NCBI GenBank assembly: GCA_037833965.1
Contig: AP031353.1
Location: 23,066,501-23,130,500, forward strand
Reading direction: 5' to 3'
From: Marchantia polymorpha subsp. ruderalis
Lineage: Eukaryota > Streptophyta > Marchantiopsida > Marchantiales > Marchantiaceae
Length of the DNA stretch: 64,000 bases
The position numbers and the translations under genes are program-made. Of the stretch, positions 6,901 to 60,854 are shown piece after piece. Every line of letters begins with the position of its first letter. The stretch's first letter is position 1. The notes below the pieces were generated by a model. That model saw only the letters and a list, made by a program, of their open reading frames with translations. It made no database searches and had not been told where the DNA came from.

Positions 6901-7787
6901 GTGATGGAACAATAACTTCCTCTGCTCCGGATGGGTAACTGTGATACTGTTTTTACAAACGGGGATCACGAGAAAACGTGCAGGCCAGAAAAATAGCCCA
7001 GCCATGTCAATAATGTACCTGGTAGCCGCAACAGGGTTGGTGCAACGTCATCGTATGGTGACGGATGGGGGAACTGCGTAGCCCAATAGAGGCCATGGTC
7101 TCTCGGCTGAAACCCTAAAATATTTCTCGCAGCTCTGTGCGGCTCCTACGAAGCAGCGCACCAGCACTTCAAATCGTGTCTCACCCTCCACTCCTCGGCA
7201 ATGGCTTCTCCTCGGTTTCTGAGTATAAGTTCATCGATGATGAATTGGTAGAAGAATGTTGTAGTGGTTACTTGCTTCTCCCCGTGGTGGAGACATAGGT
7301 ATTGTTGATTTTTATACATCGAGATGTTACGTGAGCTTAAGGATTCCACACGCGGTGACCAGAAACGAAGGGCCCTGTTGTGCATGTGAAACTGCAAAGT
7401 GGTGCCCCCCGCCTCTGGTCACTGCGACATCTCCAAGATCGAGTTTCAATCCTTCGGTGATTACTCATGCTATCCTTTCATCACCGACTTCAGTTGTTCA
7501 TTTGCGAGGGTTGTAGTATTGACTTCTTCTATCGATCGCAGCAGCTTGTGGATAGATTACAGATGCAGATCCACATTTGATTCTTTCAAACCTCCTTTTC
7601 TCCTGATAATTGTTCCCGTATCCCTAACAGTGGATGTGATGAGTTTGAATTGTCGCCCCAGTCCTATGTAAGTGCTTAGGCGCTTCATGAGGATTGACTT
7701 GTTATCAATTCTGATCCACTTTACTCTGCCGGTCCATGTTATTCGTATGTTCGGATGATTTGTGATCGACTGACGAAAAACCACGGA

Positions 7788-14804: not shown

Positions 14805-16362
14805 CTAGTGTCTGATCCTTCGTGATCTCTCACGAGAATCGCGGTCGCTTCTCTCCGAGATTTTCACCTTACCCATCTTCTGCTCCAACTGAATGCTTTT
14901 CAATTTCTCATTGACCTCATTGATGTTGGGTCGTTTGGTAGGTTCCTTGCCGCAGCATTTCAGTGCAAGTTCCACAACCTCCTCGACGAAAGCCCTCAAG
15001 CAATCCTTGCACTGGTTCCTCGGATCTTCGCTGCATGGACACCAGATGGCCTGATCCACGATCTCTTCCAAGAGTCCCAGGCATGACATTTCGTTCACGA
15101 GGTCTGGGAGGAAGGTTTTCGATCGACTGGGCTCGCCGGCTCTGAGCCCTGTCACGAGTTCCATGAGAACAACTCCAAAGCTATACACATCGGTGGTGTC
15201 AGTAAGCTTCCCAGAGCTCTCATAAGCGGGATCTGTGTATCCACGAGAGCCTTTGACTTTGGTGTGGCAGTGAGTTCGCTGCTTCTCGTGTGAAACAGCG
15301 GCGGCGATGCCGAAATCTGCCAACTTGGCACGCTTGTGGTTGTCGAGAAGAATGTTGGAAGATTTCACGTCTCTGTGGTAGATGGGGAACTTGCTATTGT
15401 AGTGAAGCTGAGTAACGGCGCTGGCTACGTCGATGGCGATGGTGAGTCGCTGGTCCCAGGTGAGCTTCTCTCCTCCGACTTTTCCCTGCAGATGCTGCTC
15501 CAAGTTGCCCCCTGGAACGTACTCGTACACTAAAAGGGGGTCTTGTTCGTAGGAAGAGAAGCCGATGAGTCGGACAAGGTTTTGCGACTTCGGCAGGCTG
15601 CGGTGAAGAAACACTTCGTACAGAACCTCTCCTAAAGAATGTCCTTTCACGTCCTTGTACTTCTTCACAGCCACCTTTTGGTCATCGAACATGAAGCCTT
15701 GGTACACTCGGCCTACCTTCCCACTGCTGACGAGCTTCAGCTCCGAGAAGTTGTTCGTGCAAGCTCTCAGCTCCCTGTAAGAGAACCAGATGACTTGTAC
15801 ATTGGCTGCCCTTCTCCAATACCATTGTGCGAAGCGAACATCTGCAACATTACCAGAAATACTTTCATCAGATTAAACGCAATACTAGGGTGAAAAACCT
15901 CTAGAACACCACTTTGTCAGTCAGGTGCTCGTAGTAGTCTCTACGAGGGTTGACTCTAGTTGATCACTAGGTTTGACATGAAAACCGTCAACAGCATGCT
16001 TTCGAGGAAAACTTGCAAGCGACGTGCAGAGAGTTATACAAAAGTGAAACTGACTGACCTCCTTCAAGATGGTAGTAATTGAAGAAATCGTGGATGAAGT
16101 CACTCCATGTGGAGACCTGGTAGCTGGTGAGCACATATTTGACGTGGGTCGAGGCCATGAGAACGGTGTGGTCTGCAGACAAACCCTGTTGGACAGCCCA
16201 ATGGGTGAACATGCTGAGCCAGTGCAAGGCTTCAGCTTGGAGCTCTTCGCCTGTGAATGGAGGGACGACGACATCACCCGGCTTGGCATGTGGAATCAAA
16301 GTGTCCAGGCACATAAAGTTGAACTCGCTGCGGAACTCCTCGCTTAAGGCGTAGTGCACCAT
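14805..16362 (-). CDS. WAK-like (RLK/Pelle) protein kinase, two exons, with unrecognised N-terminal domain
   Basis: Serine/threonine kinase. Exons 16362-16059 and 15841-14805 are joined by a 217-bp GT-AG intron that falls after codon position 1 and restores frame exactly, giving 446 residues. Kinase landmarks: FSYREL about 30 residues before the glycine loop, GKVGRVYQG near 142-150, VAVKK lysine near 161, PLLVYEYVPGGNL, YHRDVKSSNILLD (HRD near 257), DFG near 277, GYTDPAYE near 302, DVYSFGVVLMELVTG, and KRP near the end. HRD and DFG are intact, so it should be active. The YHRDVKSSNILLD wording is typical of WAK-like kinases. Exon 1 (about 101 residues, with QGLSADHTVLM and WSDFIHDFFNYYHLEG) matches no domain I know. 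I see no signal peptide or membrane span, so a receptor-like cytoplasmic kinase is likely unless more exons lie upstream. The frame stays open to about 16500, so the true start is uncertain. Confidence 0.8.
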
Positions 16363-25549: not shown

Positions 25550-26160
25550 GGAGTCAATGCCCGGCCCACTTTCAGGTCCTCGTATCAGTTCCGTGGAACG
25601 CACAATGTCGTTAGCATACGTCCGTTTGCAGCTTAGTCATCTTCGGACAAGAACCGGCAACTATCGACTGTCGATTGACATTTGTCGAATGTCTAATCCC
25701 CTGTCCGCCATTCGAGAGACGAGATTTTCCGCATCTCTGATAAACTTTCACATGGAAAGGTCGTGCAGGCCACTCCTCGAGATTCCACCCGCGGGACACG
25801 TCAATGGAGTTTTGAAGGGAGAGCGGGGTGGTGGGACAAGTCTTCTAACGCGGCCATATGGAGCTGGATGCTCCGATATCCTCGTCCATGCTCCATACCA
25901 GAAGTTGGGATATCTTCTATCGTAGGGGCGGTTGCTGTAGTCGTTCGACTAAAGAGAAAATGTACGGCCCGACAAATTTGTTCATTGAATTCGTAGATCT
26001 TTCGTTTTGTTTTTGACGTTGTATCTCGATCACAGTCACTAGCCTTGGCTCCAGCTATCCAGTGGTCGTCTAGTGTGATATTCAGTTTTCTCGACTCCAC
26101 TTCCGGTCAGCTGATGTAACAAATATTTCCTTTCCAAGCCAATGTTTCTTCTACTTTCTG
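25550..26160. other. GC-richer intergenic block, no supported gene
   Basis: Overlapping open frames on both strands (longest about 122 codons, + strand from 25557) without recognisable motifs. It lies upstream of the small basic gene at 26.69 kb. Confidence 0.35.
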
Positions 26161-26378
26161 ACAGGTATTTTGGAATCATTGTAAATATGTTCCTCGCACT
26201 TGAACATCGTGCAGTCACGAACGACACAGACTACAGTATTCCATGACAAACTCACTCGACTAGTTGCTAAAGTACGGCGCCTCAAGACTCGTGTCAGGTG
26301 GATATGAACTTCGGCAATGGTGGAGTTGAAGACACCTGTTACGAGTGCGGTGCGCTGTTACGTGAGCCCACAGAGCCC

Positions 26379-26386
26379 CACGTGGC
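26379..26386 (+). promoter_or_regulatory. G-box / ABRE core upstream of small basic gene A
   Basis: CACGTGGC, the G-box with ABRE core, about 140 bp upstream of the candidate TATA box. In plants such elements bind bZIP factors and often give abscisic-acid or light response. A role here is inference. Confidence 0.4.
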
Positions 26387-26516
26387 AAAATTCTTCCTGT
26401 GAGTTACACGCGTCGATCAGCCGCTAGCATTCTGCGCTGTCTCCTACAAACAATCCTACCATGCGTGTCGATCACAGGCAACTAAGTTTAGTTTCGCGAG
26501 TATGATTTCCTCGAAC

Positions 26517-26525
26517 AGGATATAA
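26517..26525 (+). promoter_or_regulatory. Candidate TATA box of small basic gene A
   Basis: GGATATAAGG sits about 170 bp before the ATG at 26690. No ATG occurs between this site and 26690, so the predicted start would be the first AUG of a transcript initiating near 26550. Confidence 0.45.
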
Positions 26526-26689
26526 GGTCTTCGATCCTTTGTAGTTTCAGAAATCAGCAGATTTGTCGATCTTTGCGAGAAGCTTTGGTAGCGTATCTTC
26601 AGCCCGAGTCCGCGTCATTGTAGCTACGGAAACTGTTGCTTAACGAGGTGTTTCTGATTGTCTTCCTGTGAGTTCTTCCGAGTTTGAAG

Positions 26690-27180
26690 ATGGACGCTCT
26701 GAGACGCGCTGATGCGAAAGTAGCTCAAGCTACTCATCCCAGGAGGAACACCAAGTGGAGGATGCAGAGGTAACAATCCCTCTATGGACTGCAGGAAGTT
26801 TGCTGAGACATCTGTTCTAAGGCAGAGCATATGAAATGGAGGTAGTTAAAGTACAGAGTGTTGCTATGCGCCTGATGTGTGCATGTGCTGCAGAGCTGTA
26901 GGATTTCCCAGCTTGATGTAAACAGTCAGATTTGCGTTGTTGACAGGCACATCCGGTGAACTTTTGCAAACTTAAATCCATCGTATGGATGCATTGGCAT
27001 TGGTGTTGAGGATATTTGTGCATAAGAAGATTTTGGGGACACTGTTGTTGGGTATACTGTATGCAGATTGTGAATCTGACTGATGTATCATATTATATTT
27101 TCTATTGTAGGTATAATCCTCTGTTCTACATTAAGCGCATCATCAACAACTTGAAGAGTGTAGGCCGCAGAAGACACTGA
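26690..27180 (+). CDS. Small basic two-exon gene A (49 residues), unrecognised family
   Basis: Exons 26690-26769 and 27111-27180 are joined by a 341-bp intron (GTAACA...TTGTAG) that splits an arginine codon after its second base. The product is 49 residues, very rich in Arg and Lys, starting MDALRRADAKVAQATHP and ending NPLFYIKRIINN...RRRH before TGA. The start has a strong context (AAG before ATG, G after) and is the first AUG downstream of the TATA box. The gene at 32.5 kb shares the N-terminal block, the exact intron position and phase, and the C-terminal NPxFYxKRIxNNxKS motif, which argues strongly for a real gene despite its size. I know no family with these motifs. There is no signal peptide or membrane segment. 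A nucleic-acid- or membrane-binding basic peptide is conceivable but unsupported. Confidence 0.6.
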
Positions 27181-27189
27181 GCGGAGCAC

Positions 27190-30100
27190 ATCTCGACACA
27201 GTGTAAACAGTTGTCCATTTATGGCTGAGCACAAAGAAGCTATCTTTGATACACCATGTGATCATCATAATGATTCTGCACAGAGATCGGAACGTAATCA
27301 TCTTCTAGCCAGAGGCTGCAGATCATGTACGAAACAGCAGAGGAGATTTTATTTTGTGAACAGCGGTGACTGAGTGCAATCATCTTGTAAATACCAACAG
27401 ATTTCAATAATGACCAACTTCGGATGTTGATAGTTTTGCTTCGGTCTACATCTGAGGCCATTCTTTCCTCGCAATCCTGGCATCAGTAGGGTTAATCAGT
27501 CTGCGTAGTTTGGAGTGTATGGACGTTGTACAACAACGTCCATGGTTTACTTCAGTATATTGATCATTGTAAACTTTGAATGAAATTCGATCCTTTTCAT
27601 ACATGAGAATACTACTCTATTATTTACTATTGTTTACTGAGATCTTTTTGTGTAAGCTAGCAGCTCGCATTGTCGAACAGTGAAGATCTTACTGAGAGTT
27701 ACTGAGAATGTAACATAGACGAAGTAATCAAAAATTGTAGAGTCATTTCAAACATTATGATAATAAAATATGAAATGAAGTTCCTAAATCGTCAAACCGT
27801 AGCATGTAAATTGTTTAGTACCCGCCACTTCGTAGTGATATCTCATCTTGTAGATAACATGTCAATTTAACCAATTGCATTATGTACCCAAGCGTCGGAG
27901 TAGTCTCATAATCCGACGATTATGATATGGAATTGATAATTCTAGAAAGAAAGTGTATAATGCTTAGCACCTGTTAACAAGAAAGTTTGTTTACCCAAAT
28001 GCTATGCTACCTGATGCCTGCAGTACACTCGTCTCTCAGAATTTAGTCAGACCGATCTGTGTTCCAGCCCAAAAAGCAGGTTGGGCCAACATGAGATTAT
28101 CCTTAGCATCCTCCTCTTCCTTCTTCTTGCTGAAATCTCTCTCTAGGCAAGCGATCATACTTGATCTTCGTTTGTATCCTCATAACTACGCCCCCGCCAA
28201 AGGCAAAGTTGCTTTTTCACCGAAGAAAAATAAAAATGTTATAAAGAAATTAACTGTCTCGCCCTGATTCACACATTCTATTCTCTCTCTGCTAAGTTTT
28301 TCGAAAAGATTTCGACAGTTCATATGTTAGCTCACAAACTCGCTCACATTGTCTCTCGGCCAAAATATTCGCTCAAAGGTCTCGACAGATGTACGCTCCA
28401 TTGCAATTTTGACTCCTAACTCCGCTCATTGCCCCAAAAGCATACATGTTACGACAAGTATGAATCCAAGACCTCGGGCGTTATTGTGCACATGGATGAA
28501 AATGTGCTGTAGGTAGAATCCCACGTTTTGTGTTACGCAAGTTCCCATCAAGTAATTTTTTCTCTGGCTTATGATAAGCACGATTTGAGTTTAATTAAAC
28601 TTAGTAACATATCTGCAATGATTTAATTTAAAAAATAATATTTATGTATGAGCTAAAATGTAAAGCGATATATGACTGAGAAACAATATGTTTGACATAG
28701 TCATATATGGGGGTTTGTTTCGGTTCATGCCATGTAATTGAAGAAGACAATTTATAAACTTAATTTGGGGAAAAATATTTCTTGAATGTTTAAAAAAATC
28801 TGATATAATACGTAAGAAAATATTTTAACAATAAAATTCTTGGTTTTTTTTGTCTGCTATCCTTTTTTAATGCAAACAGAATGTGATAGACTATATTTTT
28901 TACGAAGTTGTAACTGTCACTAAATTATATCTTGCATCGATCAGGATTTCTTGCTACTTTTGCATAAGAAAACGAATTCAGAGTTAAGTAAAAGGAAGGC
29001 ATATCGTAAATTCTACAAACAGACTTATATGTGTCACTCACTTACTTTTTATTCGTGCAATTGTATCCCCATTCTTTTGAGACTTCTGAAAAAGAGTATC
29101 TTGAGGATAAAAAATACATAAGAACAAATATCTCTTGTTCTTGTTTTTTAATAAATATCACCCAAACTTTCTGAGACATCCACTCTCCTGGAGTCATGTC
29201 TTGTTTTTTAAAATTCCAACAAAAGTCCTGAACCTTGATTTATCAAAAAGCATGCAATAAAGTCCACTTCCTTGTCCAAATTCAGCAACACTATTTAAAT
29301 ATTTTCATGAAATTATGAAACTTTATGAATCTATCAAAATTATTGCGGGCTTTTCTGATGCTACCGCGTTGCCAATTTCGTCCCATCAGAAGATTGTGCG
29401 GAAGTACAAAATGGTTGGCACTCACAAAGTTGAGTGTAACTCACAACTACACCACACCACGACAAGATCTAGTCCTGTAGTAAACGAACGTGGAAACCCG
29501 CTGGAATTACAGGAAATTTTGAGAACATTGGTGGAAGCAGATACTCGAAGTATACTTCACTCCAAGTATTCTTGCCGATGTAGGCACACGGAAAGGAGAG
29601 TGACCCTTCAGTCTGAAGTAAATAGCTCGGCTGCTTCTCAGGAAGTTCACAAGCAAGAATGTGCACGCGTTTAAGAAATCAAAGCTAACGACCTTGGTGA
29701 ACATATCTTCCGCTCCAATTCCTTCTATTTTAGTCCGTTATCTCGGAACTCTGCAGGCTCAAGCTTTCTTCAAAGTACGCTCGTGATACCACAGCTGCCA
29801 GTTGTGAAACAGCCCCTTGCGTGGTTTCAATTCAAAATCTGCTGGACTTCAACTAAACGTGACATAGGTGACTTATTCCTTCTTTCTACATCTATTACCA
29901 GTTTCTGTACATTTCTCATTTTACATGCGAGACAAGAATGTGAGTTCGTAAAATTTTTTATGAATAGCGTTCATGACTCTATGTGAAAGGAGAATGTGTG
30001 AAGATGATGAACACCACTTGATACTCGTTTGACTTCGACCAAACAAACCAGGAGGAACCAGGTCATATTATAAGCCTTTTACTTGTTACCAAATTTACAC

Positions 30101-31140
30101 GAACATGAACGTACACCTGCCTGAATATTTGAGTTCTATATTTGAGGTAGTGTACGGTCATATTTTGGACCGTACAATCTCATAATTCACCGTACATACC
30201 AAAAATATGAAAAAAATCTTCCCTAAGTTGAAACGGATTGTGTCCTTTAGTAACCATGACCACCCATTCTCTCGATTAAACCTACACACATGTGGAAACA
30301 CTTTGGTCTCAAAAAACTGCTCATGCGTCACTGTGAATGGAGAATCATGTAGATCGCGTTGACAATCAGTAAATGTTGCGATATTTTACGCTTGGAATTG
30401 CAACACGATTTTCTGCATAGGAGGAGAAACTTTACTCGAGAAGTGGTGAACCTCCTAGCTTAGATTAAAGTACCGATGGATTTTACACCCATCGGTGGTT
30501 TAAAACGGGGTACACAATATCACTCAACACAATGAGGACGGGTGAACCGAATGATTTTGATTTAAGTTAACTATGTTATCAAAGTGAGTAAAGGTATTAA
30601 TATCTTTAGGCAAGCAATCCACATTTAACTTGCGAGTTGAATATATTCAAACTCCACACTTAACACTTTGTTCAATAATCGAGTCAAAGTATGTACAACG
30701 CACAACTACACAATGTGGAAATACCATCACTCCACTTTCAAATCCATTGACACGTAAAAACGATGTTATTCACTTCGTGTAATGTGGAGTTCAGAGTTCA
30801 ACCTGGGGCTCTGCTCGTTGTTTGGTTGAGGGAGACTCCGCGGATGCTCCCACGCGCGATTCTTAGTTCAAAGTTAATCTGTATGATAAGGTTTACAGAA
30901 ACAAGACTTAGGTTATTGGAAATGCCTAGCGAATATTATTATTTTAAGTACTTCGTAACATTTTAATATGAGATTTTTAGGCCAAACGAATTCATTTTTG
31001 GGTCGTGCTTGGTGGTGTATCGGGACAAGATTCATGAACAACCTCAGTGGTGGAAAATGTGTCAGGTTGACATTCGTGTGATAGGAGTGATTAATAATGT
31101 ATTGCGTTGACACTTGTGTGTGATTTTGCGTATAGACATG
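27190..31140. other. Intergenic stretch, no supported gene
   Basis: Begins with the likely 3' UTR of gene A. It contains a 9-bp inverted repeat (TGGACGTTG at 27520 and its complement at 27534) and an AT-rich section at 28.5-29.3 kb. Short open frames are unconvincing. Confidence 0.45.
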
Positions 31141-31178
31141 TTGTCTTGTTGCGAGTATACGGAGTTAAAAGCCCGAAA

Positions 31179-31179
<1 letters not shown>

Positions 31180-31212
<33 letters not shown>
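31180..31212. repeat. Homopolymer tract of 33 C
   Basis: Uninterrupted run of C on the + strand. The complementary G tract could form a quadruplex. It may also mark an assembly or sequencing-length error. Confidence 0.95.
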
Positions 31213-31215
<3 letters not shown>

Positions 31216-31944
31216 TAAATCGTTTGGGTTAAAGATCTCATATTAAAATGTTATGAAGTATGCTCTCACTAGGCATTTACAATAACCTAAATCTTTGATG
31301 ATTCCAATAAATCTTTATACTTCCAAACGTAAATTTTGACTGTGAAACCTTATGGGCACGCATATTTTATGCATGGGGAATTCGAGGGATAGATAGTGAA
31401 TAATGAGGTACTTGTCACAAGAGCACAGTTAAGCAATACCTAAAGGTAGAAATGGCTTAGGAGAAGGTAGAGCAGGTACATGTACGGTCTCTATTATTGA
31501 AAGACCCAACGGTCAGGTCAATCAATCAGCATCCGCGAAGAAAAGGGGTATTCGATAAAATCCAATGCGATCCAGCTGGAAAAGCCGAGATTGAAAAGTT
31601 CCAGCGTTCGTGCTCAAAATCGGGCCTATTTCCATCGACCAATCGTCGCACTCTTCTCGTCTTGTCTGCTATATTCCACTGTAACGCGTACCTGCAGCTC
31701 CTCCTGCTCTGGCTTCGCGCCCCTCCCACCGCGAAAATGTGCGCTTTCCCCGCAATCAAAGAAGCCGCTTTCCATCGACCAGCTCAGGCGCTTGTCTTCT
31801 GCGGCCTCCGTTCGATGAAGATGTGATTCAATCATGAGCCTCTATTTACATCATTCTCCGATGCTCGGGCCCTGGAATCCTCGAGAGGACAGGCAAGGCA
31901 ACGCCAGGCAAGGGGACAGGCTTTAGGGGGCCGTCGGTCGCGAA

Positions 31945-32497
31945 ATGGACAGTGGATATACGTGATACCCTGTGGTCCGCAGCAACTTCCCTCCGCCTTT
32001 CCCTTCGTTCTCAGCGGACCGCGCCAGGGCCTCCGCTCTCTTCGGGCGGAAGAAAACACGTCCCGTCGTCATCGTTCCTCGCATATCCACGTCAACTGAG
32101 CATTGTCCGCGTCGGATTGCTGTTTACTCCACGGGGCAGCTTTCCATCGCAAAAGACTCCCTGGACGACGTGTAATCTTGAAGCGTTGACGCGCTTTTGG
32201 CGCTGGGGCTCCTCTTCTTAACCCGCTCTTCTGAGCTCGTTGGTCAACCATATCGAAGCTCGTCGAAATCAATCTGTCAGAAAGCGGATTTGGTTCCATA
32301 GATCGGTGATTTGGTCGTGCGGGGAGTTGTTTCTACGGGATTCAGGAGTCGGAGTAGTATCGTACGGGGCTGTTTGTGGGCTGATTGGAAAGGTGGCACT
32401 CTGTGCATTGGTCGGCTCTGCGGAGGAGGTGGTGAAGGAAGCATCAGGGAAGGAAGGATCCGAAGCAGAATTCTAATCAGAGCGGGTCTGAGAGGCC
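31945..32497 (+). promoter_or_regulatory. GC-rich, AUG-free leader/promoter region of small basic gene B
   Basis: From just after an ATG at about 31944 to the start of gene B there is no ATG on the + strand. The sequence is visibly richer in G+C than its flanks. This suits a long 5' leader or promoter. No clear TATA box was found; GATATACG near 31955 is the nearest candidate. Confidence 0.35.
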
Positions 32498-33074
32498 ATG
32501 GATCATCTTAGAAGAGCTGATGCGAAAGTTTCTCAAGCTACTCATCCCGTCAGACATGCGAAATGGCGCCTGAACAGGTACATCTTAGACACTGACACAA
32601 GGACTTGTTTTGGAGTTTCTCGGGGTGTGGCTGCAACCCGGCCGAGGTCGCACCGATTTGCTTTCAATCTTTTCAGCGTACAGTGACAGTTCGCACGCCG
32701 TGATTTACTTGAAATTTCTCAGATTGTGAGGACATTGTAGTCTGCTGAGCGAAAGATTCTCGACTGACAGGTCTTCTGGCCGAAGCTCTTAGAGCCGGCT
32801 GACCATCGCTCAATAAACAGAGTAGATGGCGTTGTGCTTGAATGTTTAAGATGTGGTTAATTTAGGGTGTGATGTGAGCTAAATGTTGGTGTGCCGTCAA
32901 TGTGTTTCTTGCAGATGGAATCCCAGGGTCAGGTGGAACATTAAGAAGCATAAAATGACCCACCCGATCGACCATCAAAAAGCCAAAGTGAAGAGAAAGT
33001 TCAATCACATGAATCCATTTTTCTACCTCAAGCGCATCAAGAACAATATCAAGAGCATTTTCAGAAGAAAGTAG
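32498..33074 (+). CDS. Small basic two-exon gene B (79 residues), paralogue of gene A
   Basis: Exons 32498-32577 and 32915-33074 are joined by a 337-bp GT-AG intron (GTACAT...TTGCAG) splitting an arginine codon after base two, exactly as in gene A. The product is 79 residues. It starts MDHLRRADAKVSQATHP and ends NPFFYLKRIKNN...FRRK before TAG. Exon 2 carries about 30 extra codons compared with gene A. Within them a second T-H-P motif (MTHPIDHQ) is again followed by basic residues and an N-P motif, so the protein appears to contain two tandem copies of a THP...NP module where gene A has one. It lies 5.3 kb downstream of gene A on the same strand, consistent with local duplication. ATG context is strong (G at -3 and +4). 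Function unknown; very basic, without signal peptide or membrane span. Confidence 0.6.
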
Positions 33075-33079
33075 ATCTG

Positions 33080-34690
33080 ACTTTCAGAGGTGTATTCCTT
33101 GCAGTTTATGTTCTTGATACAGTAGATCACAACTTCTCTCGACTCTTTGTATATGAGTCTACAGTTGAGAGATTTTGCAGACATTTGATGCTCGTGACGT
33201 AGGAATTAGCAGTGAAACAAAACTCCCATTGGAGTTTGTACAGATATCATTCATTCTTTCTTTCTTCAAGTAAAAGATCCAAAATAATTTACCCCTTTCT
33301 AATCAGCAGCATTAGGTACTACTCGTATGACAATTCTGCATAGCTTCTAGTGGAATTTTATTAGGTTCCCAGTTTTCTGGTAGATATACGCAGGACCCGA
33401 CTGGTCTTAGATAGCCACAGAATGTCGAGAGAATCATATTCAGAAGGCAAGCACAGGATGATGATTGAGGACAGACGACAGTTGTGTCTGCGGAAACTGA
33501 TTCTCTCCACATATCTACAGTGAGAGGGCCGTGCCAGTTTCCCAGAAACGGTCAGGCATTTTGAGGTGATGTACAGGTGGAACTCTGATTTTATGGAACT
33601 TTGAGCTGGCGCCTGGAATATGCCTCATGCCTGATGCAGTCTATATCGATGTATTATGCAGTCTGTCTGGAAGATTTTGTCAACTGTTGGGAGACTGCAG
33701 TTCACACATGTAGTTGTTTCCTACCTATTATGTGACTTGGATCTTTTGACTGGATGAACGAAGCAGGCTACATCGATTGCAAGAAGCATATTTGTAGGAT
33801 GTTCTCCTGATGCTATATAAGGACGATTTTGTTGTTTTCACTCCCTTGTCTTCGAGATGCTTGTGTATTGTCAGTGTTGACTAGTTAAATGGGTCGGAAC
33901 CTTTTCTCGTCTGCAGAAACTTCCAGTTTTTATCTCTATCATCTGCTAGAATCGAATGAAAATGAAGCAATTTGGAATATGGAGTGAGGCAAGCACGATA
34001 TTCGAATATTAACACAACACTGAATTTGTGGCAACACTGAACCTACATCTGCAATACAAGTTGCGTAACCTTTCGAATTTATTATAGAATCATCCCGGTC
34101 TCTCAAAGGGAAAGAATGTGCCTTAGCAATGTAAATCATTGATAAGGGAATTAACCCCAATCATTACTGGCCATGTCTGATAAATATGAAGGTTGTTTGG
34201 AATTGCCTACAATCATTATGATTGAATTAATCGCGGTGTTTTAATTTAATTCTGAAGTGACCACGGAATTGAGTAAACCGTTTATTTCGAAGTCTTCTTA
34301 CTCGACAGGAAGTCAGCAGCTTCTCTTTGTTTAGAGGTGAAGCGTTTCGATGACAGCGATCCTTTATAGTAGCCAGCTGCAACGCTTGTGAATGTACTCC
34401 CGTTGGGTGCTCAGTTGATCTGTACTGCCCTTCCTGCCATTTACTCTGTCTGTCCTCTCGTACCTTCGAAGGACCTGATAATTCGAAATGTCGGCGAAGG
34501 ACTCTTTGACAGAGACCTGTGGGAATCACTGACATGAATAAGGGGCTAAAACGCCTACACAGCGCATTATACTTCCGGAGTTACATTACCTCCACTCGGG
34601 TATTTCCTCCATGGCGAATTTACCACATAAAATCAAATGATATTTCATATAAGTTCAGCCCCAGAATTCTGTTCGCTTAAGATCGGTTTG
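33080..34690. other. Intergenic between gene B and the laccase gene (convergent 3' ends)
   Basis: Contains the 3' UTRs of two convergent genes. No additional gene seen. Confidence 0.5.
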
Positions 34691-34695
34691 AAAGT

Positions 34696-37600
34696 CTACG
34701 CTGCGCAAGCCGTTAGTCTTGGGGGAGGTGGCGGGAGGGTCTGATCAGGCCCAACTCCATTTTTCACAATGAACGCCATCTGCATACCCCACGAGGTGTG
34801 TTTCTCCAGGTGACAATGCAGGAACCAAACTCCTGTGGAAACAAAGAACGCAATTTCAGATTCTTGTAAATCCTCTTGCACAAGTCAATTGCTTGGGCAG
34901 GCAGAGCGAAGCAATCGGGAATGCTGAAAGATTTCTCACGTTGCAACATGTCTTACCTGGGTTAGTTGCTGCGAATCTGATGGCGACCCATCCTCTGGAA
35001 GGAACGTCAACTGTGAATCGGTGGGGAGGGTTGTAGTAGTTGAGAGTGGAAGGACTGTTAATGGGATCCCAATCGCCCTGTCCACGGCCCAGCACGTAGA
35101 AGTGGTACCCATGCAGGTGGAAAGGGTGGCTCTCGAAAGCAAACACCATGGTCCCTTGTAGCACCAGGTCCAGCACCGTCCCGTACTCGAGCACGCTAAC
35201 CCTCGTTCCCAGCTTCGAAATCTGTTGAGCCGTAGGCGGACTATCGGGACTCGTGTAGAAAAACGGGCTCTCGGGAAAATCAGGGAAATCCGTCGTGTAA
35301 ACTCCCTCGATGCCGAAGTAGTATGCCTGCAGTAGATCGATTTTGGGCAGGACGAAGGTGATATTGTTCACCTCCCCAGCTGCTCTAAAAGTGCAGTTCT
35401 GTGAGGGTTCGCAGAATTGGCTGGCCGTGCCGACGGTGAACAACATATTTCGGGTTGCGTTAAGAGGCACATCCTGGGGCCGTAAGGTGAACAGGCTGTT
35501 CTCAAACTGCATCGCAAAACTGGAGTCATTCTCCGCAGGAAGGCCTGGATAGAATGTCGTACTCGGGTCCAGAACCGGGGCACTGTCATACTGAAACAAA
35601 GCAGAGGCCGGAATCTTGGGGACGTCGTTCAGAATGACTTGTACTGCTGCTGCTGGTAGTTCTGCTGGGTCCGTGAGTATGACAGACGAGTAGCCTTTGG
35701 CTTCCATGTAGTAGCTGCCGGGGGCCTGATCCGCGGTGATCAGCACGTTCATCGTCTGGCCGGGGCCAATGTACGTGGTGTCGAAATCCGTCGGCGTCAC
35801 GTACTCACCGTCCACCTCCACCACCGTCTGCTTGTGGTTCGCGATCCCCAGAAACTCTTCCGTGTTCAGTCCAGCGTTGATCACCCGCAGCAGATACGTC
35901 TTGCCCGCTGAAATCGTGAACCTGGTGATTCCTGTGCGCACATACACACGTCCATACCTGGTCATCCTGTTTCAGAGCCACTGTACTGTACTCACATGCA
36001 AGCGTTTCACAATCTCGACGAGAGAAATCTAATCTTCACGTGCTTCAGAAAATGTCAGAGTCCTTCATCATATCGTGCAGCCATGAGGAACCAGGCCTCG
36101 GCATTCGTGCCGAAGATGGCGTTTCTGTCGCTTGGAAGCTAATGCAGCCATTTCTGCATTTACAGACATTTGGACTTGCCCTCAGACTCGAGATTATCAT
36201 TCAGATTATCAGAGCGCCCATCGGTGAGTATGCATTGGTCCTCGTAGGCCAGGGACCACGGCTGTCCGGAAAGTACCGGGAGATTTCAATCGTAGATGGT
36301 GGACTCGGCACCAGGTCAATGAAGCACCGAAGCTCCAGTCGGAAGAAATTTGTGAATCTGACAATCTGAGAGCACGACGAGATTGGACCGGTGTCACATA
36401 CCTTCGACATCAGTGCAATTGTAGCGGTAGCCTGGTTTGCCGTTGACGAGGAGAGCATCTGCAAGCTGGAAAGGACCTCCGCCTTCGAGTCCGGCGATTT
36501 CAATAGCTTCAGGATCTCCATTCCACCATTCACCTGTAACACGACGTTCGAAGGCAGGCTTGAGTCAACCATGATCGAGCTGACATTGCAATTGTGAAGC
36601 CGGGCAACCTCATCTACTCCACAGACATCGAAGGGTGTCGAGCGGCACGGCACAGTCAGAGCCGGTCCGAAGACAACAGTTGCGAATTGGTGCTCACGTT
36701 CTGATTTCGACCATCGAGCTGTAAAAAGCAGATTCTACTGCGGTAGTGTAAGGCGTTCTTCCGTAAAGATTTAATATTGGACAGGATACGAACGCAGAGA
36801 TGTCACTTGTCCTCGTGGAAAATAGTAAAGTACAGAAGGGCATGAGTAGCAGAAATTAGGTGAGAGATTCGTTGGCTCGAGTCTGACGATGCTTTACAAG
36901 GTCTGACGCTGCAGAGATGCGGAGAATCTTCTCTCGATGGCAAGTGCTCGGCGGGATAGATTCTCTTGACGAAGCGTCGCAATTTGCCGTATCTGGAACC
37001 GAATGAAGACATGCACCAGAATTCCTACGGTACAGGAAAGCTCAGACTTGCGGTCCACGATCTACGACAAACTAGACATCTTCAGTGGGGCCTCAAACAA
37101 GTATGAAGTCCGTGCTTGCACGGACGCTGAGAAGCATGAAAGCCCAGCATGACGCAGTGACCGAAATCAGTCTTGCTCCTTGACTGAAGAGCCCACTCGG
37201 GCGTCAGCCATGATGACGAACAATAATCCATGGCAATCGATTGCTGAGCACTCTGCATGAGTACGAAGGCTTCCAACAGACATGTTTCAGACATTGTGCC
37301 CAGAGGAGTCTGTGGAAGAAGTTACCAATGAATGAAGCGACTACTGAGAGACTGAGTGGGAGACACTGTGGCTCCTTCCACTTGTGTCAGTCCCAACCGA
37401 GCCTTAGAAAGCATCCACTTTTAACGACGATTGTGGGGCTCCATGATTCAGGTCCCCCAGAATCTCGTACGAGAATTCGCCCAATTATCCTCTAGCTCGG
37501 CATATCGATATGCATTAAGAGAAGATGGAATGAAACATGACCAAAAGTTGGCTAGAATAATCTGACATTTTAGGAAGAAACAGAGAAATCTGCAAAGTGG

Positions 37601-38981
37601 ATGACAGATGTGAAGCAATTGAAGAAGGATTCGTACCTAGTGTCACAATAAACTGATCATCTGGTTTGGTATGAGGGTATGTGAAGTCTCTTGGAAAGAC
37701 CACAATGGCTCCGTGCACGGTCGCTCGAAGCCAGGTCGTGTGGGCATGCCAGAACACAGTTCCAGTTTGGCCTTGGAGAGTGAAGTTGTAGACAAAGGAG
37801 TCGCCCTGTTTCAGCGGACATTGTGTGATGTATCCTACTCCATCCTGCCAGCAAGATAAAACCTGCCGAACACCATGCCTACAAGACAGTAAGACAGCCA
37901 GTTTAAGCAAATTATACAACTCAGAATGACAATGAAGATTTGACGACATTGAACAGCTTCAGTTTCCGCTGCTCGCTGGCAAATCTAGAGAGCACTTTCA
38001 GCTTTGCACAAATCACTCCGATGAGAATATGTATTTGACTGTTGGCTACACGCAAACATATATGCAATGAAGTCATATGGGATCCTACCAATGAATGGTA
38101 ACACCCGAGCCGGCGTTGTTTGTGACATTGACGATGATGGTATCCCCTTCGACGGCATAAATGGTTGGTCCTGGAAACTGCCCATTCACCACTATCATAT
38201 CCTTGGTGACACAGTTCGCTGTGACGGAAGATACTCCAATCTGTCCAGGGTCCCACGAAAATGCATGAGCTGAAGTCTCACCATATAATGTGCAGGGGAG
38301 TATCGACAATGAATAAAAATAATGCCCCAGCAAATCTATCGTTAAAATAACACGTTCAGCTTATTCGTGAATCTCTGGGATTCGTGCGTCCAGACTGGTC
38401 GCAGCTTCGAATCAGAGGAAGCTCAAGGGCCAAAGGTGGAACGGAGATCATAGTAAAAGCTCAATCTACAGGCGGGATGCTGCATAGATTGCGCGACATC
38501 GTCTTCGCGGTTCGTGTATTTAACACATGCCAGAATTTTCAAATAAACTGGTATTGGGCATCAGGGATGAACACAAATTCTGACGCGTAAATAGTCTCTC
38601 CAGTAGTTGCCATTACTCTGCAGGACAAAACGTGGCTGCTGTGCATGGTTATTTCAGCTGGGACGACTACCTTGCTCTGAAGCTCATTGTCCACTGAGAA
38701 TTGAGCTCGTCTTCGTAAATGCAGATCTTTGTGACTTTCACTGAAATATGAGCAATGTCAAGGGGATTCAGATGCACAAGTAGCTGCTGAAATTGGTTTG
38801 AAGCTTAGAAACTTACACTCCATCCGTAATATCTTGTCGTTGGCCCACTATAGGTACTCTCCGTATCATGAGGCCCGTTGTTTGTTGCGTTACAAATAAC
38901 AAAACAGTATCCGAGTAAAATCCACAATCGTCGCACTGGCCCTTTCCTGGCTGCCATATTCTTCAAGCTGCTCCCACTCAT
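34696..38981 (-). CDS. Laccase (multicopper oxidase), complete, six exons
   Basis: Secreted blue copper oxidase that oxidises phenolics and reduces O2 to water. Exons: 38981-38817, 38240-38089, 37878-37637, 36533-36402, 35931-34957, 34832-34696. All introns are GT-AG with matching phases, total 1803 nt, 600 residues (family usually 550-600). The N-terminus has a basic segment and a hydrophobic run ([12 protein letters not shown]), a likely secretion signal. Copper motifs: HWHG (105-108), WHAH (149-152), HPFHLHG (499-505) and [12 protein letters not shown] (561-572), which holds the type-1 Cys and an axial Met; all ligand histidines are present. Laccase hallmarks [19 protein letters not shown] and GEWWNGDPE are also seen. 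Start chosen at 38981 (AAC before ATG); an internal ATG at 38957 would also keep the signal. A frame from 38333 also enters exon 2, but it lacks the TRYYGWS block that the GTAAGT donor of exon 1 supplies. Likely role: phenolic polymerisation or defence in the cell wall. Confidence 0.92.
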
Positions 38982-57949: not shown

Positions 57950-58680
57950 AAGAGCGCCTCAGGCGCCTTCCGCAAAAGCTTTCTTGTTAAGGGGTCTTCG
58001 GCGAAGCACCTTCGGCGCAAGCAGGAGCAAGCGCCTTCAGCTCAAGCCCCTGCAGAAGAGCTTTCACTGAGGACGTACAAGGCCTGGGACATTTGCGCCT
58101 TCATTAAGGGAAAGCGAAGTCGTCGCCAGTCACTCGCCTTCGGCGATGCGACTTCGGGTGTAGACGTATTAGGCGGTAGACGCCTTCGGCGACAGAGTGA
58201 ATCCCTCATAACTTTCTCAATTCGTAACGCCTTGACTTGATTAGGGTCTTGTTGGAAAGAGCTCAACATGCTCGTCTTAAAGAGCCCAAGAATTCTTAGA
58301 ACGAATATGAAATCATTGAGTTATGAGTGTCGGAAGTTACTGATATGGGGCTCCTTCGGCGGAATATAAGCCTTCGGGGCAGCCCCTTCGGCGATACGCC
58401 TTTGGCGGTGTACTCCTTCGCCAGAACGCCTTTGGCGCCAGCGCATTGATATTAGGTCAACGCCTTCGGCCGTACGCCTTCGGCAGACACGTGCGCCTTC
58501 AACGGAATGGAGCACCTGCGGCAAGAGCGCCTTCGGTAGGACAAGAAAGAACATCGGAAACGACAAGACGCATTGACTTCGGTCAACGTCTTTGGCGGAA
58601 GACAGACGCCTTCGGCGATACGGAGAAAGTAAGTTGGAAACCGGCCAGGGACGAAGTCCTTCGGCGATGCGCGAGCAAGG
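57950..58680 (+). repeat. Interspersed GCCTTCGGCG-type motif cluster
   Basis: More than 15 copies or near copies of (G)CCTTCGGCG (variants CCTTTGGCG, ACTTCGG, CCTTCGGGG) occur at irregular spacing, with a few more at 59295 and 59985-60020. CGCCTTCGGCG can fold on itself (4-bp stem, 3-nt loop). They are confined to the nested element. The irregular spacing and several frames argue against a protein repeat. Confidence 0.8.
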
Positions 58681-59029
58681 CTAAGTCGACGGACAATGGC
58701 AGAATTCAATTTTCAGGCGTGAGAGTTCGCACAACGGCGGAGCGTGAAGCCGAGCGTGCGAAGAAGGCCGTTACGCCTCCAAGCCGACTCTGCATTCAAG
58801 TGGATCGATCCCACTCCCAAGTGTCGAACGGTGAAATCTTGATCGCCGAAGATAGCCGTATCATTCTTGCAATTTTGATTTTGATTTCGCTCGAGCGTCT
58901 ACCGCGCAGCAGACAATTGGCGGAGAGAAATTAGAGAGAGTTGCGACGAGCGAGCGTGCAGCAGCTGAGTGCGCAGCCAGGGGGTTCTCACTAGAAAGTG
59001 CGGGGAATTCGCAGAGTGATTGAGTCCGC

Positions 59030-60854
59030 GTGCAAGAAGCTTGGGAACAGAGAGCGGAGAGTTCGCGGACTTCTGACGTGCGCGGCAGAGTTCAAAAACG
59101 CGATGTTGAAGGCTACGCAGCTACGGATGATTCTGCTGAAGCTACCGCAGATCGCACCGCTAGAGCAGACCTCACCCGGAGCGGTGGGAAGTCCGGAAGT
59201 GACCGGAAGCAGGTGTTAGGAAGATGTGCGAGAAAAGAAGGCCATCTTCTTTTCGAGTGCGAGAGTGTCAATGTCTTGAAGGAGGAAGAAGCTTCCTTCG
59301 GGGCGCTATTCAAGCATAGCAAATCGAGCAAGAACGGGTACAAGACTCGTGACTACAAGGATCGCTTGCGGATGAATGTCGCGGTAGCACTCATTCAACT
59401 GTTGCAGCCGCACTGGACCACTTACATAACTTCTTGGCAGGTGGGGTTCATGGAGCTGGCGTTGTCCGGAGTTCCGATTCATTGGGCTCGCATTCTGTGG
59501 AAGGCGACGAGACAACACGCATTCGAGGAGAAGGGAAGATCGATCAATCACCTCTTCCCCTTCTTGATCAATTTCTATCGGTCGATGGGATGTTTGACCG
59601 CGTCGGAGCGGATACAATTTCCATTGCTGTCACGCAGCAATCCGGGCCGATATGTGATGGTCGTCGAAGTTGATACTGACGAAGACGAGACGCCTGCCTG
59701 CACGCCACCAGCTCAACCGAGGGCGGAGGAAGAACCGCTCGCAGCACGAGTGCCGCGAAAGCGGAAGTGGGAAGGAGGGGCGGAGTAGAGCCAGCAACGC
59801 GATGCTGCTGCTTCCAATCGAAAGCGGCCGATGCAGGATCTCTACAGTCGTCCCAAGCAGAAGACTCGCAGGCTCGTCCTGCCGGCAAGAAGCTGCAGAG
59901 AGGAGAAACTCGCCATCCTCGGGGGAGGATGCAAGTGCACAAACTTCGGAGAGCTCAACGGATCTCCCTGCACCGAAGGCACGGACGCCTTCGGCGGAAG
60001 CAAGAAGGCCTTCGGGGCAAGGAAGACAACATGCGGCACCGACCGAACGGTACCTTGATCGCAAGGTGACGAAGTATGGTGATCCCCGCCATTGGGGGTC
60101 CTACGTCGAATTGGTGCGCAATCGGACGCGGACCAAGGTCAGAACAAGTCGTTTGTTGGCCTCCTTGGACGAGACAATCAAGGATTTGAAGTTGAAGAAC
60201 GAGGCCCTCCGTGGACACCTCGCCATTTCGCGGAAGTTGCAGAAGGCGGTCAACAAGGCGCGTGATGAGAAGTTGGATGAAGCGGAGAAGGAATTTGCGA
60301 AGAAGCGGAAGAAGTTCGCGGAGGAGCTCGATTCTGAGCAAGCTCAGAATCACATCTCGTTAGAGGAGCTCGTGCGACAGACACGGTTACTAGAGCAGTG
60401 TTAGAGCGCACGTCAAGCCGATGAGGAGTTAATTCGTCACCTGCAATCGCAGTGCGGCGAATTGAGGGCGCAGCGTGCGGAGACAGAGTTGCAGCTGGTA
60501 GAGGTTGAAGGCGATCACCGGCGCGCGACAGATCGCACGCGAGAGGAGTTGGTAGAGCGAGTGAACCGCTGTCTCAGAGGTTACACTCACTAGGAAGAGG
60601 CTGCACAAGAGAGAATCACATTGCGCGGGTTAGAGATTCGTGCGGCGGAATTTATGTCGGGTGACAGTCGGAGCCGGCGGAGGGTCGCGAAGAGGTTAGA
60701 AGCTTTTCTGTCAAGGTCGCGAGACGCCATTGCGACCCTTGAGGCAGAGGTGACCGAGGTACTTCGGCGGCTGGGGTTGCGCAGCAAAGCCGACGACTGG
60801 TCGGGTAGGGAGTTATTGCGCGGAGTTGGAGAACACTACCTGCAGATCCTCTGA
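59030..60854 (+). pseudogene. Broken plant-transposon protein with coiled-coil C-terminal part (nested element)
   Basis: First frame (59030-59788) contains HWTTYITSWQVGFMELALSG, VPIHWARILWKATRQHAF and LFPFLINFYRSMGCLT. This recalls the 'putative plant transposon protein' domain, but only from memory. A basic KRKW segment and a TAG stop (59786) follow, and the same frame then continues (SNRKRPMQDLYSRPKQ...RRLVLPA). After a frameshift near 59.96 kb, the second frame runs to TGA near 60854. It reads YGDPRHWGSYVELV and then long Glu/Lys/Arg/Leu heptad-like sequence (coiled coil), broken by TAG at 60402 and 60591. Undamaged it would exceed 550 residues. The precise function is unknown; no DDE triad could be assigned. 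Confidence 0.5.

Follow-up and report, generated by a model that had tools for sequence, protein, structure and literature searches.

Do two tiny spliced open reading frames (ORFs) in a 64,000-nucleotide stretch of DNA from Marchantia polymorpha subsp. ruderalis (contig AP031353.1; this whole stretch is called the window below) represent real protein-coding genes, and what might their products do? In the initial annotation of this DNA the two loci, here named gene A and gene B, appear as related, tiny and highly basic genes that stand in tandem, have two exons each and share the intron phase; our analysis supports this, and supports that they are a paralogous coding pair. The elements of the two genes, with positions counted from the first letter of the window, are as follows.

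26690..26769, plus strand: exon 1 of gene A, codons 1-27, the last codon split after base two; MDALRRADAKVAQATHPRRNTKWRMQ-R
26770..27110, plus strand: intron of gene A, 341 bp, GT-AG
27111..27180, plus strand: exon 2 of gene A with the TGA stop; YNPLFYIKRIINNLKSVGRRRH
32498..32577, plus strand: exon 1 of gene B; MDHLRRADAKVSQATHPVRHAKWRLN-R
32578..32914, plus strand: intron of gene B, 337 bp, GT-AG
32915..33074, plus strand: exon 2 of gene B with the TAG stop, holding about 31 residues lacking in A
26521..26530, plus strand: TATA-like sequence about 170 bp 5′ of the gene A ATG, a pattern match only

As read from the sequence, the splice junctions fall at 26769/27111 in A and at 32577/32915 in B, and both introns split an Arg codon after base two (AG-G and AG-A). 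The spliced frame of A is open from the ATG at 26690 to the end of the stop at 27180 and encodes 49 amino acids (AA); that of B runs from the ATG at 32498 to the end of the stop at 33074 and encodes 79 AA. Junctions, Arg phase and open frames of these two same-strand, two-exon loci agree exactly with those given in the initial annotation. Without splicing, the A frame halts right after exon 1, at 27 residues, and the B frame continues to 62 residues, so that splicing is needed to join the N- and C-terminal blocks that the two products share. An in-frame TGA is located 7 codons before the ATG of A (26669) and 3 codons before that of B (32489), with no in-frame ATG between in either case; the starts of both genes are thus well defined, barring an upstream intron. 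A pattern search for TATA[AT] found no occurrence in the 398 bp 5′ of the gene B ATG.

The two proteins are identical in 33 of 48 aligned columns, and the N-terminal block MD-x-LRRADAKV-x-QATHP and the C-terminal motif NPxFYxKRIxNNxKS, already pointed out in the first reading of the locus, are present in both. Their local protein alignment reaches a score of 142, against 55 for the highest of 2000 shuffles. For genome-wide comparison the whole assembly was searched (241,466,482 bases in 9 contigs), with only the best candidates scored. The A peptide gave four rows up to E 10, and these are both exons of A and both exons of B, with B exon 1 found at E 9.1e-7 and B exon 2 at E 0.0037. Two such copies are indeed hard to get by chance, as had been argued, and chance similarity of A and B is rejected on the shuffles and the genome-wide E-values. 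Seven rows were obtained with the B peptide: its own two exons, A exon 1 at E 3.7e-5, A exon 2 at E 0.878, and three others. By itself, the A exon 2 row is no better than chance; from the side of B, therefore, the C-terminal link rests on position, order and frame and not on the E-value. When the C-terminal piece of B was searched alone, it found only itself and A exon 2, the latter at E 0.097. No convincing third copy was seen among the best candidates scored in the 241-Mb genome. Candidates for further copies from the B-peptide search, on C4, C7 and C3 (E 1.27, 1.43 and 8.78), were taken as chance; the own exon 2 of A does hardly better there (0.878).

At the DNA level, gene A matches only itself and B exon 1 among the best candidates scored in the genome. 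Direct comparison of 26000-28000 with 31500-34000 placed exon 1 in the lead (84% over 51 bp, E 3e-11) and the C-terminal block second (77% over 44 bp, E 1e-4). The other rows, a 15-bp opposite-strand match at E 0.015 and the rest at E of at least 0.62, resemble background, and this comparison gave no convincing alignment of the introns or flanks. Convincing DNA similarity between A and B is limited to the two coding blocks. As little outside these blocks is still alignable, the duplication is probably old. Judged by these comparisons, A and B are homologous protein-coding genes.

Selection on the coding frame was assessed over 47 aligned codon pairs, from which A codons 28 (Tyr) and 49 (His), with unsure partners, and the extra residues of B were dropped. 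The proportion of differences was 0.63 at synonymous sites (pS) and 0.21 at nonsynonymous sites (pN), giving a pN/pS of 0.33 with a bootstrap range of 0.18-0.58. After Jukes-Cantor correction the corresponding distances are dS of about 1.4 and dN of 0.25; the dS value is rough, because the synonymous sites number only 29 and dS is uneven along the gene, from 0.44 over the first 17 codons to 1.84 over the C-terminal 20. By codon position the differences divide as 15/5/22, which departs from equal shares (chi-square p 0.005). Of the five remaining frames of the A-B alignment, four contain stops (5 and 3 in the forward frames, 4 and 8 in the reverse ones), and the sole other open frame, on the reverse strand, gives a ratio of 1.06; two of the stop-bearing frames give 0.8. 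The substitutions between the copies are thus biased to synonymous sites, and on this two-way codon comparison A and B are under purifying selection as proteins. A lack of such bias was among the outcomes that the initial annotation had named as speaking against the genes, and on this point the pair withstands the test.

Searches of family and structure databases gave the pair no name. Pfam held no family matching A or B. For A, NCBIfam returned two families far below threshold, scoring 12.5 and 12.3 bits where the cut-offs are 371 and 625; for B it returned none. Among the sequences of the PDB, no convincing relative of either protein was found, the best match being Cas5 at E 0.84; matches between E 0.84 and 1.3 (Cas5, a DUF2280 protein and TcdA1) were taken as chance, including chain 8hku_L45A at E 1, a DUF2280 protein whose label suggests a ribosome entry. 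Of the 19, 158 and 10 pattern-matching stretches in viral and prokaryote contigs, none was confirmed by tblastn; plant genes would not be expected in such contigs, and the result has no bearing on plants. Six peptide strings of the pair occurred in none of the open-access papers searched. The proposal of an undescribed family stands to the extent of the Pfam, NCBIfam, PDB and open-access results, and reaches no further. Candidate families of unassigned function are common in plant genomes, and from their sequences A and B appear to be a sound candidate gene family without a named family. The accompanying suggestion that exons this short would escape routine gene finders is doubtful, because the annotation of Marchantia polymorpha records many short genes: in one published protein set, 6,815 of 24,751 proteins are shorter than 200 AA (PMC9901580).

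Both products have a computed isoelectric point of 12.0, with a charge at pH 7 of +11.7 for A and +21.1 for B, and both are free of Glu and Cys. The highest 15-residue mean hydropathy is 0.42 in A (from residue 31) and 0.03 in B (from residue 62), neither of them N-terminal, and hydropathy windows revealed no core of a signal peptide or membrane helix in A or B. The approximately 31 extra residues of B lie inside exon 2, ahead of the C-terminal block, and look like a faint second THP...NP unit, with a score of 43 that 2 of 5000 shuffles attained. This internal repeat is suggestive only, since the split was picked after seeing the sequence. In AlphaFold2 models built from single sequences, a C-terminal helix is predicted at residues 30-47 of A and 61-78 of B, beginning in both with the Pro of the NP that they share; an N-terminal helix is predicted at residues 3-13 of A and 3-28 of B. 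Over the C-terminal helix, successive ten-residue blocks have a mean predicted local distance difference test (pLDDT) of 80 and 65 in A and of 74 and 82 in B, the best values of the respective models. Five hydrophobic positions of the predicted C-terminal helix, of our own choosing, keep their character between A and B (L/F, I/L, I/I, L/I and V/I).

With gene structure, homology, selection on the protein and composition established, we turn to what the products may do. As a whole, the explanation that we tentatively favor is that A and B are real, old tandem duplicates under purifying selection, whose tiny basic intracellular proteins would bind RNA or DNA. The functional part of it, that these are intracellular nucleic-acid- or ribosome-associated microproteins, is suggested by composition and anatomy and is put forward with slightly more caution. 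Such a protein would open with the N-terminal segment MDxLRRADAKVxQA, which is helical in both models and holds both acidic residues kept in A and B; after it would come THP, then a basic central part in which one Trp is conserved, and finally a basic C-terminal helix starting at the Pro of NPxFYxKRIxNNxKS. The proteins would probably stay inside the cell, and their likeliest action would be binding of RNA or DNA, for instance as small proteins associated with the ribosome, the nucleolus or chromatin. The basic stretches would touch the phosphate backbone and the hydrophobic residues of the C-terminal helix would pack against a partner. B, whose basic middle is longer, may represent a two-site version of A. 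A more speculative and, in our estimate, unlikely extension is an unnamed land-plant microprotein family that serves as a plant-specific accessory of a basic machine, chromatin or the ribosome for example. A would be its one-unit form and B a two-unit form produced by internal duplication, and selection would have kept them adjacent for a very long time, judging from the rough dS of about 1.4. If A and B do bind the ribosome or chromatin, a machine already studied in depth would gain a component specific to plants.

Several observations weigh against an RNA- or DNA-binding role or against the strength of its basis. No ribosomal or nucleic-acid-binding PDB chain matched in sequence at better than E 0.84. 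The selection test rests on two sequences only, and when only the 33 codons of the two best-conserved blocks are used, the bootstrap range of pN/pS widens to 0.11-0.67. Confidence of the models is low, with a mean pLDDT of 69.4 and a predicted template modeling score of 0.23 for B, and 64.4 and 0.32 for A; the models also disagree, in that the first helix of B passes through THP and that of A stops before it. Within the C-terminal helix, the I/K and G/F changes lose the character of the position. Its amphipathicity is modest: among 5000 shuffles of the segment, 120 for A and 234 for B do as well, and that of the whole proteins is matched by 147 (A) and 244 (B) of 1000 shuffles. Finally, the basic composition is also compatible with binding to membranes or calmodulin.

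This last point leads to the explanation that A and B are real genes whose product is a basic amphipathic helix acting on membranes or on calmodulin-like partners, not on nucleic acid, which we regard as possible but rather doubtful. In both proteins the five largest hydrophobic moments over 11 residues fall in the same C-terminal stretch, where the five conservative hydrophobic positions are also located, and hydrophobic residues identified by eye stand 13 apart (L31/V44 in A, F62/I75 in B), a spacing known from some calmodulin-binding helices. Yet the amphipathicity is ordinary for these compositions, I38 of A, on or near the hydrophobic side, corresponds to K69 in B, and the densely basic, Glu-free middle exceeds what such a helix needs. 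Import into mitochondria or plastids, where A and B would act as a small subunit or assembly protein, would fit the Arg-rich N-terminus LRRADAK and the tiny, basic character that recalls several small subunits of organelle complexes; we consider it unlikely, as two aspartates within the first eight residues, kept in both proteins, would be unusual in a presequence, and the chains of solved complexes give no convincing match. Small, cationic and tandem-duplicated genes are also frequent among those for peptide hormones and defence, and a secreted or cell-penetrating signalling or antimicrobial peptide could be imagined on that ground. The proteins, however, have neither a hydrophobic signal core nor Cys, and their slow change (pN/pS 0.33) is unlike a defence arms race, which makes this explanation quite unlikely.

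The remaining alternatives concern the genes themselves. Conserved-peptide upstream open reading frames (uORFs) typically encode short peptides that are kept between copies, and between A and B the plus strand carries six ORFs of 75 AA or longer (28004-28267, 29315-29674, 31497-31826, 31591-31818, 31952-32221 and 32240-32476), so that A and B might be uORFs of an unrecognised main gene or else short exons of a longer one. Both frames, however, are closed by upstream in-frame stops and by stops of their own. Four of the six intergenic ORFs lie more than 4 kb 3′ of A, and the only one scanned, 29315-29674, had no Pfam match; 3′ of B the plus strand lacks any ORF of 75 AA or longer until 35736, and the next recognised gene on that side is a laccase on the opposite strand. 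Judged by ORFs of this length, a uORF or longer-gene origin seems very unlikely. That the similarity is non-coding, being a conserved RNA element or mere chance, would agree with the short length, with the presence of only two copies and with A exon 2 alone being not significant genome-wide (E 0.878 and 0.097). Against it stand the codon-position pattern and the pN/pS in the spliced frame, as well as a protein score far above the shuffles, and no Rfam family was found at either locus at gathering score. This explanation is thus extremely improbable, an RNA element being disfavored by the codon-position bias together with the lack of an Rfam match at the loci.

For nucleic-acid- or ribosome-associated microproteins, a close comparison is with eL39 and eL41, tiny ribosomal proteins of about 25-51 residues that are rich in Arg and Lys, have almost no acidic residues and carry no signal peptide. 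A and B are likewise tiny and basic, with few acidic residues and no signal peptide, but have no convincing Pfam or PDB match, and differ by the two kept N-terminal aspartates and the NPxFY motif. Protamine-like proteins of plant sperm are also small and basic; A and B mix Lys and Arg with Trp, Tyr, Asn, His and fixed motifs instead of forming Arg runs, and their protein change is slow. DVL/ROTUNDIFOLIA peptides, too, are tiny basic plant proteins that act in the cell, yet their RTF motif is absent from A and B, and no Pfam model matches. The MpSGF small gene families of Marchantia polymorpha resemble A and B in being short plant genes found by sequence, and 7 of the 28 are taken as without presumed function (PMC9901580). 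The MpSGF, unlike A and B, were picked for their similarity to Arabidopsis short ORFs (PMC9901580). Small two-exon genes are the part of a plant genome most easily missed or left unnamed, and a pair that is conserved and bears a clear mark of selection lends itself well to functional study, above all in a haploid-dominant liverwort, in which a knockout takes a single generation.

Ten ORFs of the window were scanned against Pfam, six of them without a match. Exons of a laccase-like multicopper oxidase (Cu-oxidase, Cu-oxidase_2 and Cu-oxidase_3) occupy 34856-38333 on the minus strand, convergent with gene B, and a 300-residue kinase-domain ORF (PK_Tyr_Ser-Thr, E 8.6e-35) lies at 14805-15707 on the minus strand; these two neighbors say nothing on the function of A and B. 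Between A and B, the plus strand holds a run of 33 C at 31180-31212. ORFs of 162, 252 and 244 AA are found at 58446-60404 on the plus strand, in a GC-rich region (0.55 in 58001-60000), with no Pfam match at E 0.01. At gathering score, the window has a single Rfam match, a C/D-box snoRNA, snoU31b, at 7632-7717 on the plus strand, with 54 bits against a gathering score of 37.

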